Below are positions 882 to 7,680 of a stretch of DNA of 64,000 nt, piece by piece. This DNA comes from Chelatococcus albus (GTDB taxonomy: Bacteria > Pseudomonadota > Alphaproteobacteria > Rhizobiales > Beijerinckiaceae). A program made the position numbers and the translations under genes. The notes under the pieces are model-generated. The model saw nothing but the letters and a program-made list of their open reading frames with translations, ran no database searches and was not told the origin of the DNA. Each line of letters opens with the position of its first letter. Position 1 is the stretch's first letter. The stretch is from the NCBI RefSeq assembly GCF_030067675.1, contig NZ_JASJEV010000007.1, positions 1 to 64,000 on the forward strand. Reading direction: 5' to 3'.

Positions 882-1358
882 GCCGAGGATGCCGGCCGCC
901 TCCTGCCCGCCTCGGGGCCGGCCCGCTACGAGGCGCTGCAGTGGCTGATGATCCAGCTCACCGGCATCGGGCCGATGTTCGGCCAGTACGTGCATTTCGC
1001 CCGCTACCACAAGGGCATCGACTATGCCGAGGCGCGCTACCGCAGCGAGGCGATCCGGCTCATGAACCTCCTCGGGGAGAGGCTCGCCGCGGTGCCCTGG
1101 CTCGGCGGCGCGGACTATTCCGTCGCCGATGTCGCGACCTATCCCTGGCTGCGCAACGCCGGCCCCATGGGCCTGCCGACCGAGGGCCGGCCGAAGCTCG
1201 CGCGCTGGCTCGACGCGGTGGCCGAGCGCCCGGCCACCGTGCGCTTCCTGGAAAAGATCAGGGACATCGCCTCGGCGACGGATGCCGCCCGCAGCGTGGC
1301 GACGCCCGACGGGCTCGACCGCATGTTCGGCCGCGGCCGCTACGCCCGCGTGGCCTGA
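882..1358 (+). pseudogene. Glutathione S-transferase, 5'-truncated
   Basis: About 158 codons correspond to the C-terminal all-alpha domain of a GST. AEDAGRLLPAS resembles the usual LAEKTGRLLPA linker, followed by WLMIQLTGIGPMFGQYVHF and the GADYSVADVATYPW motif that carries the conserved N-capping Asp. The N-terminal thioredoxin fold that binds glutathione is missing: upstream of 879 the sequence becomes the ArsR-like remnant on the other strand. An internal ATG at 948 could start a 136-aa product, but it would lack the glutathione site. A functional protein is unlikely. Confidence 0.7.
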
Positions 1359-1413: not shown

Positions 1414-2484
1414 TCAGGCGGGAATGGCGCGCACGGCGGCGCCGATGCAGATGACGACCATCATCGCCGGCAGGGCCCAGCGGATCTGGCGCTTGAGCTC
1501 CCGGGCCGCGACATGGAAGCGCGCCTGCGGGTCGGCGGCGCGGCCCGACAGCGCGACCTCCAGCATCAGCACGGCGACGAGATAGAGGTAGCCGAGCGAG
1601 ATCATCTGCGCGATCGGCGTGTTGAGCGAGATGGAGCCGGGAAAGCTTGCCTCGAAGGTGAAGCTGATGGCCGCGAGCGCGAGCAGCGAGGAGAAGATGA
1701 GGCCGCCCTTGTCCTGCTCCTTCAGCCCCGGCGACCAGAGCACGAAGATGGAGACGGCGAGCACGGCGAGGATCGGCACGAAGACGCGCAGCAGGTAGCG
1801 TTCCGACAGACGCGCGAGCGTCACCGTCGCATTGAGGCGGGAATAGCTGCGCGCGTTCCAGCCCATGGTCTCCGCGTTGGCGAAGCGCAGGCGCACGGGC
1901 TTCCAGTCGACGACCGAGAGCGCCTCGTCGATGTCGGAGAGCTGCCGGTCCGCTTCGGTGGCGATGAGGATCGCCTCCTGCTTGGCGTAGCGCGGCAGGG
2001 AGAAGGAGAGCGTCAGGTCCTGCCGGTCGAAGGGGAAGGCGTCCATGTTCATGCGGAAGCGGAAATTGGCCTCGTAGCGCTCGATGAGCACCACGTCCCC
2101 GTTCGCATGGGTCGAGACGGCGACCGTGCGCGATTCGCTGTCGCCCACCTGGTTGTCGACGGAAAGGCCCGGGGTCCAGATGGTCTTCAGATAGTCGTCC
2201 GCATCGTCGCCGACGCGGTCGACGCGGCCCGTGCCCGCCTCCACGGCGTCGAAGCGCAGGCGCGGGTCGGACCAGCGCTGCGTCACCTCCACGTAGAGGC
2301 GCCCCTGGCCGGCGACCTCCGCCACCTGCAGCACGTTGAGCACCCGGAAGGCGACGCGCACGCGCACCGGCAGCTCGACGCCGGTCGGCAGCGCATCCTT
2401 GTCGGCGGGCTTGTCCGCGGGCGCCGCGAGCCCGGCGGCCGGAAGGGCGAGAAGAAGGGCGAGGACGAGGAAGAGGCGCTTCAT
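1414..2484 (-). CDS. Pentameric ligand-gated ion channel (Cys-loop/pro-loop family)
   Basis: The 356-aa product has the full layout of a bacterial pLGIC subunit (GLIC/ELIC type). A signal peptide (about 1-21) is followed by a periplasmic beta-sandwich (~30-228) with WSDPRL (71-76), IWTPGL (102-107) and the pro-loop signature FPFDRQ (150-155); the flanking cysteines of animal receptors are absent, as usual in bacteria. Four membrane helices follow: M1 ~230-250, M2 ~259-279, M3 ~290-312, M4 ~334-352. Aligning M2 by eye with GLIC puts Ser at 6' and Leu at 9'. It should form a ligand-opened inner-membrane pore. The start ATG overlaps the stop of the Cache gene upstream (TGATG), so the two are translationally coupled. 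I chose this ATG over an in-frame start 90 bases upstream because a signal peptide follows it directly. Ligand unknown. Confidence 0.93.
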   Translation of the reverse strand: MKRLFLVLALLLALPAAGLAAPADKPADKDALPTGVELPVRVRVAFRVLNVLQVAEVAGQGRLYVEVTQRWSDPRLRFDAVEAGTGRVDRVGDDADDYLKTIWTPGLSVDNQVGDSESRTVAVSTHANGDVVLIERYEANFRFRMNMDAFPFDRQDLTLSFSLPRYAKQEAILIATEADRQLSDIDEALSVVDWKPVRLRFANAETMGWNARSYSRLNATVTLARLSERYLLRVFVPILAVLAVSIFVLWSPGLKEQDKGGLIFSSLLALAAISFTFEASFPGSISLNTPIAQMISLGYLYLVAVLMLEVALSGRAADPQARFHVAARELKRQIRWALPAMMVVICIGAAVRAIPA

Positions 2485-3539
2485 CACACCCCCCGGCGGC
2501 GCGCCAGCGCGACCTGGAAGAGGACGGAGAAGACGACGAAGGCGAGGATGCCCCCGCACAGGGCGACGACCCACAATTCGGTGTGCGTGCGCCGCGAAGC
2601 GGCGCGCGGGTCGTCCTTGAGGGCAATCGTCAGCCCGACGAGCCGGCCGCTGAAGTCCACGAGCGGCTGCGTCACCATGCTGAAGGCGCGCCCGTCGATG
2701 CGCTCCTCGCCGATCTCGATGTCGCGGGTGGGGCGGATGCGGCTCTTCTTGAGGAGCGAGGCGAAGAGCTCGTCGTCCGTCGACATGGCGAGGTTCAGGT
2801 CGCCGAAGCGCGGCGTCTTGTCATCGAGGGCAATGCCACCCAGCGACGGCACGACGATGACGGCGATGTCGGCATTCGTGGACGCCTTCACGAGGTCGAG
2901 GATCGGGCGCATGTCGAGGCCCACCTCCATGGTGCCTGCCATCTCGCCCCCATGGTTGACGACGGCGATGCCGCGCAGACCGATGCCGGCAATGCCGATC
3001 TCGACGCCGGTCTGGGCGCGCCGCGTCCTGTTCGCCGCCACGACCATGGGGCGAAAGCCCGCGATATCGTCGCCGAAGGACTCGGGCTTGTGCATGCGCA
3101 GGAGGTAGCGGATGTCCTTGCTGTGATAGCCGTAGATCTGGATGCCGGCCTGGCGCTTCAGATAGTCGTAGGGCCCCTGCGACAGGCGCTGCAGCGCCTC
3201 CCGGTCCTCGGCTGCGAGCGCCGCCGCCACATCGGCCCGGCGCGCCGTCGTCTCGGCAAGGGCGAGGGCGAACTTCGCCGCCTGGTCGAAGGAACTCGCG
3301 AGCGCGCCGCTCACGAGCTTCATCTGCACCGCCCGGTCGTGCGCGTTCGCCTCCAACTCCGCCCCCTCGAGGAGCCGCAGCATGCCGCCGAAGGCGAGAA
3401 CGAGAACCACCGCGACGGCAAGCGCGACGGCAGCTGCCGTCCCGCCCAGGAATCTCCGCAAGGGGATCCCGCCCCGCGCCGGGAAGGGCGCAATGACAGT
3501 CGTGGCTGCGTCGGGTGGCGTGGCGCTCGGCTGCGGCAT
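2484..3539 (-). CDS. Membrane-anchored double-Cache sensor without output domain
   Basis: The 351-aa protein has a short cytoplasmic N-terminus, a membrane helix (~30-52), a periplasmic region of ~260 residues and a C-terminal membrane helix (~325-345) with only a few residues after it. The periplasmic part resembles the dCache_3-type sensor of chemoreceptors and kinases; the segment around GIAGIGLRGIAVV followed by GTMEVGLDM is typical. Such domains bind small molecules, often carboxylates or amino acids. No kinase, HAMP, MCP or cyclase domain follows; instead the stop codon overlaps the start of the ion-channel gene. The sensor may present ligand to, or regulate, the channel in the periplasm (inference). 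Start ATG 3539 is preceded by AGGATCG; upstream in-frame starts would add a tail unlike the family. Confidence 0.8.
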   Translation of the reverse strand: MPQPSATPPDAATTVIAPFPARGGIPLRRFLGGTAAAVALAVAVVLVLAFGGMLRLLEGAELEANAHDRAVQMKLVSGALASSFDQAAKFALALAETTARRADVAAALAAEDREALQRLSQGPYDYLKRQAGIQIYGYHSKDIRYLLRMHKPESFGDDIAGFRPMVVAANRTRRAQTGVEIGIAGIGLRGIAVVNHGGEMAGTMEVGLDMRPILDLVKASTNADIAVIVVPSLGGIALDDKTPRFGDLNLAMSTDDELFASLLKKSRIRPTRDIEIGEERIDGRAFSMVTQPLVDFSGRLVGLTIALKDDPRAASRRTHTELWVVALCGGILAFVVFSVLFQVALARRRGV

Positions 3540-4902: not shown

Positions 4903-7680
4903 ATGCTCGATCGCGTGCGGACGGTGGACGCGGGCCCGGAGATCGCCTTCACGCTCAACGGCCGCGACGTCGCCGTCGTCAGCTCGCCCGCCGCCCGGCT
5001 CACCACGGTGCTGCGCGAGGATCTCGGCCACACGGGCACGAAGGTGGGCTGCGACGCCGGCGACTGCGGCGCCTGCACCGTGCTCCTCGACGACGAGCCT
5101 GTCTGCGCCTGTCTCGTCGCCGCCGGTCAGGCGGAAGGGCGCTCGGTCGTCACCGTCGAGGGGCTCGCCACCCATTCTCCCAACGCCGAGCGGCTCAAGG
5201 CCGCCTTCCTCAGCCACGGCGCGGCGCAGTGCGGCATCTGCACGCCCGGCATGCTGGTGGCGGCGACCGCGCTCCTCGACCGCAACCCGACGCCGACCGA
5301 ATCCGAGGTGATGGACGCCATCGGCGGCGTGCTCTGCCGCTGCACCGGCTACCGCAAGATCGTCAAGGCGGTGCTCGATGCGCGCGCCACACCGGCACAG
5401 GCCGATCCTCCCGCGGCCGGCAAGGCGGTCGGCGCGCGCATCGCCCGCCTCGACGGGGAGCGCAAGGTTTCCGGCACGGAGATCTTCGGCGCCGACGCGT
5501 GGCCGGCGGACTGCCTCGTGGTGCGCGCCGTGCGCTCGCCCCACCATCGCGCGGGCTTCACCTTCGGCGATATCGACGCCTTCGTGGCAGCGAACCCGGG
5601 CGTGGTGCGCGTGTTCACCGCGCGTGACGTGCCGGGCGAGAACCGCTACGGCGTCATCCCGCCCTTCGCCGACCAGCCGGTCTTCGCCGAGCGCGCCGCC
5701 CGTTTCCGTGGCGAGGCGGTGGCGGCGGTCGTCGGCGAACCCGCCGCCATGGCGGCGCTCGACCTCAACCGCTTCCCCGTGACCTGGCAGGAGTTGCCGG
5801 CCAACACCACGATCGAGGCGGCGCTCGCCGAGGGCGCTCCCCTCTTGCACGAGGACCGCGCCGGCAACGTGCTGGTGCGCGGGCGCGTGGTGCGCGGCGA
5901 TGTGGAGGCGGCGCTCGCAGCCGCCGACGTCATCGCCGAGGGCGAGTTCGAGACGGGTTTCGTCGAACACGCCTATATCGAGCCGGAGGCGGGCTTTGCC
6001 CGGCGCGTCGGCGACCGCATCGAGATTCAGGCCTGCACCCAGGCCCCCTACATGGACCGCGACGACGTCGCCAGGATCCTGGGGCTCGCGCCCGAGGCCG
6101 TGCGCATCATCCCGACGGCGGTCGGCGGCGGCTTCGGCTCCAAGCTCGACCTGTCGGTCCAGCCCTTCGTGGCGTTGGCCGCCTGGCACCTGAACCGCCC
6201 CGTGCGCATGGTCTACACGCGCCCGGAATCGATCATGACGACGACGAAGCGCCACCCCGCGCGCATCCGCGCCCGGGCCGGGGCGACGCGCGAGGGCCGC
6301 CTCGTCGGTCTCGACTTCTTCGGTGATTTCAACACTGGCGCCTATTCCTCCTGGGGGCCGACGGTGGCGAACCGCGTGCCCGTGCACGCCTCCGGCCCCT
6401 ATCACGTGCCGCACTACCGGGCGCTGACGCGCGCCGTGCACACCCATCTCGTGCCCGCCGGGGCCTTCCGCGGCTTCGGCGTGCCGCAGGCGGCCATCGC
6501 CCAGGAGCAGCTCTACGACGAGCTCGCCGACAGGCTCGGCATGGACCGGCTGGAGTTCCGCATCCTCAACGCGCTCGCGCCCGATCAGCCGACGGTCACG
6601 GGCCAGGTGCTCGGCGAAGGCGTGGGCATCCGCGCCTGTCTCGAAGCGCTCCGGCCGCACTGGCGCCGGGCGCGGGAGGAGGCCGCGGCTTTCAACGCCG
6701 CCGCCGACGGGCACCTGCGCCGCGGCGTCGGCGTGGCCGGCATGTGGTACGGCTGCGGCAACACGTCCCTGCCCAACCCCTCCACCATCCGCGTCGGCCT
6801 GAAGCGCGACGGGCGGCTTTCCCTGCACCAGGGGGCGGTCGACATCGGCCAGGGCTCGAACACGGTCATCACCCAGATCTGCGCCGATGCGCTCGGCGCG
6901 CCGGTGGCGCGCTTCGACCTCCTGTCCGGCGACACGGACGTGACGCCGGACTGCGGCAAGACCTCGGCCTCGCGCCAGACCTTCGTCACCGGCAAGGCGG
7001 CCGAGCTCGCCGGGCGCGGGCTGCGGCGCGCCATCCTGCGCCTCGCCAATGCAGGCGAGGCGGCGGAGGTTGTCTTCGAGGACGGCGCGGTGACCGTGCG
7101 CGCGGGCGACCACGCCCGCCGCATCGCGCTTGCCGACCTGCCGCTCGACGCGCACGGCTACGTGCTGACGGGGGAAGCGACCTTCGACCCGCCGACAAGC
7201 CCGCTCGATGCCGACGGCCAGGGCATTCCCTACGCCGTCTACGGCTTCGGCGTGCACATGGTCGAGGTCGAGGTGGACGTGGAGCTCGGCACCGTCAAGG
7301 CGCTGAAGATCACGGCGGCGCACGACGTCGGCCGCGCCATCAACCCGACGCTGGTCGAGGGCCAGATCGAGGGCGGGGCGGCACAGGGGCTCGGCCTCGC
7401 GCTGATGGAGGAATTCCATCCCGGGCGCGGCGAGAACCTGCATGACTATCTTATCCCCTCCGCCGGCGACATGCCGCCGGTGCAATCGATCCTCGTCGAG
7501 GACGCCTCCCCCGTCGGCCCCTTCGGCGCCAAGGGCGTCGGCGAGCAGGCGCTGATCCCGACCGCCCCGGCCATCCTCAACGCCATCCACGACGCCACCG
7601 GCGCACGCATCCGCCGCGTGCCGGCGACTCCGGACCGCGTGCGCGCCGCCATTCTCGCCGCCAAGAGCGCACGAGGCTGA
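4903..7680 (+). CDS. Molybdenum hydroxylase, fused 2Fe-2S and molybdopterin subunits (candidate nicotinate dehydrogenase)
   Basis: The 925-aa protein joins two subunits that are often separate. Residues 1-~165 carry a plant-type 2Fe-2S site (C50, C55, C58, C70) and the second cluster motif (C110, C113, C145, C147 in CRCTGY). From ~175 on is the molybdopterin-binding large subunit with GGGFGSK, the AFRGFG loop and the C-terminal GAKGVGE segment carrying the catalytic Glu. Such enzymes hydroxylate aromatic N-heterocycles using water. Together with the FAD subunit upstream it would make a complete enzyme. The 6-hydroxynicotinate reductase-like gene follows after one base, so nicotinate to 6-hydroxynicotinate is the likely reaction; related heterocycles cannot be excluded from sequence. 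Confidence 0.88.
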   Translation: MLDRVRTVDAGPEIAFTLNGRDVAVVSSPAARLTTVLREDLGHTGTKVGCDAGDCGACTVLLDDEPVCACLVAAGQAEGRSVVTVEGLATHSPNAERLKAAFLSHGAAQCGICTPGMLVAATALLDRNPTPTESEVMDAIGGVLCRCTGYRKIVKAVLDARATPAQADPPAAGKAVGARIARLDGERKVSGTEIFGADAWPADCLVVRAVRSPHHRAGFTFGDIDAFVAANPGVVRVFTARDVPGENRYGVIPPFADQPVFAERAARFRGEAVAAVVGEPAAMAALDLNRFPVTWQELPANTTIEAALAEGAPLLHEDRAGNVLVRGRVVRGDVEAALAAADVIAEGEFETGFVEHAYIEPEAGFARRVGDRIEIQACTQAPYMDRDDVARILGLAPEAVRIIPTAVGGGFGSKLDLSVQPFVALAAWHLNRPVRMVYTRPESIMTTTKRHPARIRARAGATREGRLVGLDFFGDFNTGAYSSWGPTVANRVPVHASGPYHVPHYRALTRAVHTHLVPAGAFRGFGVPQAAIAQEQLYDELADRLGMDRLEFRILNALAPDQPTVTGQVLGEGVGIRACLEALRPHWRRAREEAAAFNAAADGHLRRGVGVAGMWYGCGNTSLPNPSTIRVGLKRDGRLSLHQGAVDIGQGSNTVITQICADALGAPVARFDLLSGDTDVTPDCGKTSASRQTFVTGKAAELAGRGLRRAILRLANAGEAAEVVFEDGAVTVRAGDHARRIALADLPLDAHGYVLTGEATFDPPTSPLDADGQGIPYAVYGFGVHMVEVEVDVELGTVKALKITAAHDVGRAINPTLVEGQIEGGAAQGLGLALMEEFHPGRGENLHDYLIPSAGDMPPVQSILVEDASPVGPFGAKGVGEQALIPTAPAILNAIHDATGARIRRVPATPDRVRAAILAAKSARG

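Follow-up and report, generated by a model that had tools for sequence, protein, structure and literature searches.

A double-Cache protein without an output domain is encoded as a conserved pair with a pentameric ligand-gated ion channel in Chelatococcus albus and other bacteria

Introduction

The closest described relative of the locus reported here comes from Tasneem, Iyer, Jakobsson and Aravind (2004; PMC549065), who identified in Rhodopseudomonas a predicted operon containing a stand-alone Cache gene and an ART-LGIC gene and proposed that the products cooperate. Other bacterial pentameric ligand-gated ion channels (pLGICs) are served by an extra periplasmic module fused to the channel itself, as in DeCLIC and in the PBP-I, MCP-N and Cache fusions (PMC549065). 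The lobes of the DeCLIC N-terminal domain are jelly-rolls, not Cache domains (PMC9897478). A separate Cache-bearing channel subunit is found in the voltage-gated calcium channels of animals, where alpha2-delta carries dCache_1 and VWA domains (PMC9901441). The dCache_3 family (PF14827) is known from chemoreceptors and kinases; the Cache models of Upadhyay et al. (2016; PMC4822843) were built from proteins carrying an output domain, and the outputs listed there for dCache_3 are kinases, MCPs and cyclases, with ion channels not in the list.

We have analyzed a gene pair from Chelatococcus albus located in a 64,000-nucleotide stretch of contig NZ_JASJEV010000007.1, referred to below as the window. 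The initial annotation of this DNA knew of no separate Cache subunit coupled to a bacterial channel, but the Rhodopseudomonas operon is such a case. As in that operon, the Cache gene of the window stands alone and is predicted to be co-transcribed with the gene of a pLGIC, and three Rhodopseudomonas pairs in our collection (L060, L062 and L063) belong to the same clade. The earlier report, however, consisted of one genome and a suggestion, whereas more than 60 distinct loci are described here.

The window pair differs from the fused-module channels in that its module is a separate membrane-anchored protein. The likeness to alpha2-delta is one of functional analogy only; the window Cache has no VWA match, and its partner belongs to another channel family. 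With the dCache_3 chemoreceptors and kinases it shares the Cache family and the invariant residues, but it has none of their outputs. The window channel has the fold, the FPFDxQ Pro-loop and the Leu9' of GLIC, ELIC and sTeLIC, at an identity of ∼20%, and we know of no Cache partner in those described systems. In the literature that could be searched, we found no follow-up of a Cache and pLGIC operon (work in other journals is possible), no paper joining Rhodopseudomonas and pLGICs, and no mention of Cache in Jaiteh 2016 or the DeCLIC papers. Relative to that literature, the breadth, strictness and ancestry of the pair appear to be new. The present analysis adds the breadth of the pairing, its strict coupling, the dCache_3 type of the sensor, the decay of a HAMP-like tail that points to chemoreceptor ancestry, and the tree congruence that accompanies co-inheritance.

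Results

The Cache gene is the first of the pair (2484..3539, minus strand) and encodes a membrane-anchored dCache_3 sensor protein of 351 residues without an output domain. The second gene (1414..2484, minus strand) encodes a GLIC/ELIC-type pLGIC of 356 residues with a Pro-loop. The two meet in a TGATG junction (2482..2486, minus strand), visible directly in the sequence as GTG-TGATG-AAG, where base 2484 is common to the TGA stop of the Cache gene and the ATG start of the channel gene. The coordinates, the one-base overlap and the dCache and pLGIC identities given in the initial annotation are all correct, as judged from the sequence and the Pfam matches. The C. albus genome contains a single gene for each of PF02931 and PF14827, namely the window channel and the window Cache. 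The boundary on the channel side is a gene for a GST C-terminal domain (948-1358, plus strand) that points towards the pair; beyond the Cache gene, a diverging molybdopterin dehydrogenase cluster starts at ∼3968.

Several features of this neighborhood can be recorded in their own right. The GST C-terminal domain lacks a recognizable N-terminal thioredoxin-fold half, and the gene is possibly truncated. A DDE transposase fragment (PF01609; 36-437, plus strand) occupies the first bases of the contig, ∼1 kb from the channel gene, and the contig edge beside it is the limit of the visible neighborhood on that side. In the molybdopterin dehydrogenase cluster, the 2Fe-2S and large MoCo-binding subunits lie in a single open frame (4903-7680, plus strand), adjoined by a separate FAD subunit gene.

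The window Cache matches PF14827 with an E-value of 1.4e-14 (54.8 bits against a cut-off of 25.7) and has no second Pfam domain. It therefore carries neither the HAMP and MCP signaling domains that define a chemoreceptor nor the VWA and dCache_1 combination of alpha2-delta. Two hydrophobic helices span residues 36-54 and 322-340; the second (2520..2576, minus strand) is followed by only 11 residues before the stop codon. The fused output domain that is usual in dCache_3 architectures, although it lies outside the definition of the domain itself, is consequently absent. Because a search of PDB sequences with the Cache gave no match, we relied on fold comparison. An AlphaFold2 model made with 44 relatives (mean pLDDT 91.7) has a double-Cache fold between two membrane helices, and its best matches among solved structures include CitA and DctB: the membrane-distal domain superimposes on CitA with a Z-score of 19.3 (1.9 Å over 130 residues) and the whole model on DctB with a Z-score of 16.5 (4.1 Å over 219 residues).

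Seven residues are invariant in the paired Caches (R148, D158, R163, N170, E180, R189 and E205), but they are equally invariant in chemoreceptor relatives, which means that they belong to the general sensor and are uninformative on the channel. We therefore rejected them as a diagnostic ligand motif, and no pair-specific ligand can be named from them. A citrate-like ligand is only hinted at by the CitA-like fold of the modeled distal domain, since a fold does not show a ligand. By contrast, M165, Q176 and F259 are kept in the pairs and not in the chemoreceptors.

The window channel matches PF02931 (Neur_chan_LBD) with an E-value of 2.6e-19 (69.9 bits against a cut-off of 26), and its best solved relatives by sequence are GLIC entries (phmmer 2e-12, residues 39-340). 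A signal peptide precedes the ligand-binding domain, and four hydrophobic helices follow it. The invariant residues comprise F150-P151-F152-D153-Q155 of the Pro-loop, the M1 proline P237, and L268, which is Leu9' of M2. The window M2 also has Asp-1' and Lys0'. Across the main clade, Leu is present at 9' throughout, an acidic residue (Asp or Glu) occupies -1' in 55 of 62 channels, Lys0' is found in 42 of 62, and the 19' position is acidic in all 62. By analogy with nicotinic receptors, as known in general, this M2 pattern suggests that the channel is probably cation-selective, so that its output would be an ion flux. R47, E66, R142, S183, G208 and W209 are near-invariant across 64 paired channels and seldom occur among 20 channels that lack a Cache partner. 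A possible binding site on the channel would combine the invariant W71, W103 and W194 with the pair-specific G208-W209. Their conservation pattern marks the pair-specific residues of the channel and of the Cache as candidate interface residues or as candidate parts of a particular ligand site.

To our scan of named genomes, which took one genome per species (84,980 species), we owe 56 channel loci, and a Cache gene lies directly upstream on the same strand at all 56. The genera with the pair include Bosea, Bradyrhizobium, Rhodopseudomonas, Rhodoplanes, Pseudolabrys and Phreatobacter, and also Rhizobium, Shinella, Hoeflea, Reyranella and Acidovorax. Within the window's own family, the channel is found in two of 199 sampled genomes, and three sampled congeners have no channel. 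In the second of these family genomes, the genes of the corresponding pair (L003) overlap by ATGA, and the channel is 72% and the Cache 57% identical to those of the window. When 397 genomes of the order were searched with a channel profile, a sharp set of close matches (L008-L017 and L036) emerged, each with a Cache gene immediately upstream, whereas the more distant channels in those genomes have no adjacent Cache. The pairing thus holds in 64 of 64 pairs from at least two classes, without a swap of partners. The proposal that an output-less dCache protein is coupled to a pLGIC as a conserved unit is borne out by this survey, both at the named loci and in the order-sample relatives, and the pair, present at more than 60 distinct loci, is far from being confined to this genome. 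Because the pairing is unbroken across so many related loci, the Cache and the channel almost certainly form one working unit.

The coupling extends to the junction. Among 63 distinct pairs, the genes overlap by 4 nt in 39 and by 1 nt in 15, and are 1-34 nt apart in the remaining nine; a pair in another class (L125) has a GTGA overlap. The TGATG overlap in the window is not a matter of chance, because the same junction type occurs in 54 of the 63 distinct pairs and in that other-class pair. A Shine-Dalgarno-like word stands ahead of the channel start in 31 of the 63. One locus (L012, genome G782) has the ATGA overlap, yet its channel frame starts at a TTG 16 nt past the Cache stop, possibly through a signal-peptide frameshift or a sequencing error.

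Conservation does not extend beyond the two genes. Across the whole set, the pair has no conserved third neighbor; only Rhizobiaceae synteny and ORFs antisense to the two genes recur, and flanking genes are conserved among near relatives only. Thirteen Rhizobiaceae loci (L065, L069, L070, L072-L074, L080, L081, L083, L088-L090 and L092) have common opposite-strand flanks that by eye resemble enoyl-CoA-hydratase and acyl-CoA-dehydrogenase genes, probably reflecting local synteny. When plasmid records were searched with the Cache and channel queries, no place covered most of a query and no plasmid-borne pair was found. In the bacterial family that holds the Cache-paired L125 (f240), the channel of L130, and probably those of L131 and L132, which are of similar length, exceeds 700 residues and has an apparent N-terminal PBP-I-type domain, so that channels with two different kinds of sensor partner are found in a single family.

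We also searched the 397 order genomes for the Cache, using a profile built from the 11 order-sample paired Caches and scoring few candidates per genome. The search returned 11 matches of 416-488 bits, all from pairs in channel-bearing genomes. The next-best match scored 193 bits and came from ORFs of ∼660-740 residues, the size of a full chemoreceptor. Paired Caches outside the profile still scored 326-450 bits (247 bits for L125), indicating that a close relative lacking a partner would be expected to score within the gap; among the candidates scored, no close Cache relative without a channel was found.

Trees of the two proteins, which are quick trees with some long branches, agree with this picture. 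The paired Caches fall on one side of a branch that separates them from 20 chemoreceptor-type Caches (SH-aLRT 100), and the paired channels form a single clade that excludes 28 unpaired channels (SH-aLRT 99). Because of the nature of these trees, the deep branching positions of L017, L125 and L036 are uncertain. Distances in the Cache and channel trees correlate with a Spearman coefficient of 0.945, and 42 of 61 splits are shared, with no conflicts among supported splits, although congruence is also expected from linkage alone. One genome (G642) contains two pairs, L013 and L036, and each Cache groups with the relatives of its own channel. These two pairs are only distantly related to each other, and L036 is distinguished by a Pro at -1' in the channel and by the Cache tail that is closest to HAMP. 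The pair of Acidovorax delafieldii 2AN (L064, NZ_ACQT01000005.1), betaproteobacterial by record name, is nested among alphaproteobacterial pairs in both trees; the nesting suggests that both genes were transferred together, with contamination as the alternative.

All 63 paired Caches have exactly two hydrophobic helices, but they differ in what follows the second: 45-62 residues in 31 pairs and 4-15 residues in 32. In profile alignment, the long tail corresponds to the HAMP region in chemoreceptor relatives (hhalign, one comparison: E=9e-6, probability 83), and that of L036 matches PF00672 with an E-value of 0.0058, below the curated cut-off. The HAMP-like tail was lost twice on the tree, and the window copy is without it. 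The Cache looks like a chemoreceptor truncated behind its second membrane helix. The simplest story, we infer, is that a chemoreceptor- or kinase-type sensor lost its output, kept a decaying HAMP region for a while, and became tied to the channel.

At one locus (L093), the Cache stop codon is a TAG in frame with the channel, so that read-through gives a natural tandem. AlphaFold2 folded both halves of this tandem with a mean pLDDT of 81.9 and a pTM of 0.52, values that refer to a model made with unpaired alignment rows and one channel subunit, that is, a 1:1 rather than a 5:n complex.

Discussion

We are highly confident that the Cache and the channel function as partners. Since an output-less dCache protein and a pLGIC are conserved as a unit, a receptor-channel pair is the best reading of the data. 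Conserved neighbors can also cooperate without touching, and it is with less assurance that we lean toward a sensory auxiliary subunit that controls the channel by direct or membrane-mediated contact, where the contact and the direction of control are what we infer. The two-component receptor-channel proposed in the initial annotation thus stands as far as the conserved unit is concerned, whereas the metabolite sensing, gating and ligand hand-over that it invoked stay at the level of suggestion.

In such an arrangement, the Cache, a former chemoreceptor or kinase sensor that has lost its cytoplasmic output, would be anchored in the inner membrane and expose its double-Cache domain to the periplasm. 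A ligand would bind the Cache, probably in the CitA-like membrane-distal domain, and the signal would be passed sideways to the extracellular domain of the channel, through the membrane helices, or both, shifting channel opening and hence ion flux. The overlapping genes may serve to fix the ratio of the two proteins and to have them made in one place. We give roughly even chances to a reading in which a chemoreceptor sensor without its cytoplasmic output joins a pentameric channel in a heteromeric receptor-channel and gates it through the periplasm or the membrane, as a bacterial counterpart of the Cache-bearing auxiliary subunits that converts a metabolite signal directly into ion flux.

The alternative that best survives, which we nevertheless consider unlikely, is that the Cache is a membrane-tethered protein that captures a metabolite in the periplasm, concentrates it locally and hands it over to the channel's own site, without allosteric contact. 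The genetic evidence for such a role is identical to that for a sensory subunit. Ligand concentration and hand-over were proposed for Cache and binding-protein partners by Tasneem et al. (PMC549065), and other bacterial pLGICs have fused PBP-I-like domains (L130; PMC549065) or neighboring PBP-II genes (PMC549065). The retention of the three tryptophans and of G208-W209 in the possible channel site would also fit. However, the Cache domains of known receptors, as a matter of general knowledge, transmit conformational change through membrane helices, and the HAMP-like tail in half of the family is a better fit to signaling.

It is less probable still that the Cache serves the assembly, trafficking or stability of the channel, with ligand sensing secondary. 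Its position as the first gene of the coupled unit, its constant number of hydrophobic helices and the fact that the window's clade has lost every cytoplasmic output are compatible with this role, and alpha2-delta, part of whose role in animal calcium channels is of this kind (PMC9901441), offers a precedent. Against it, the residues of the sensor fold are kept as strictly as in chemoreceptor relatives, which suggests selection on ligand binding, and most other sampled pLGICs are without such a Cache.

We regard as improbable a third possibility, that the Cache still communicates with the chemotaxis or kinase machinery, for example as a heterodimer with full-length chemoreceptors, and that the channel is a parallel second output. 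The nearest unpaired Caches do lie in long ORFs of chemoreceptor size, and the host has 16 MCP-signal genes above the cut-off, which makes a link to motility possible. But the MCP signaling region is gone, with 4-15 residues left after helix 2 in the window's clade, and the pair lacks a conserved third gene. Mere co-transcription of unrelated genes is strongly disfavored, because, although overlapping genes are generally known to be common in bacteria, every pair keeps its partner across at least two classes while the flanks are otherwise unconserved.

The sensory-subunit reading bears on a general problem, in that few natural triggers are known for bacterial pLGICs and a strictly co-inherited sensor is a direct handle on the ligand. 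If the Cache gates the pore, a receptor sensor would have been rewired from a cytoplasmic signaling output to an ion channel, and the pair would provide a simple model of auxiliary-subunit control in the family that includes the human neurotransmitter receptors.
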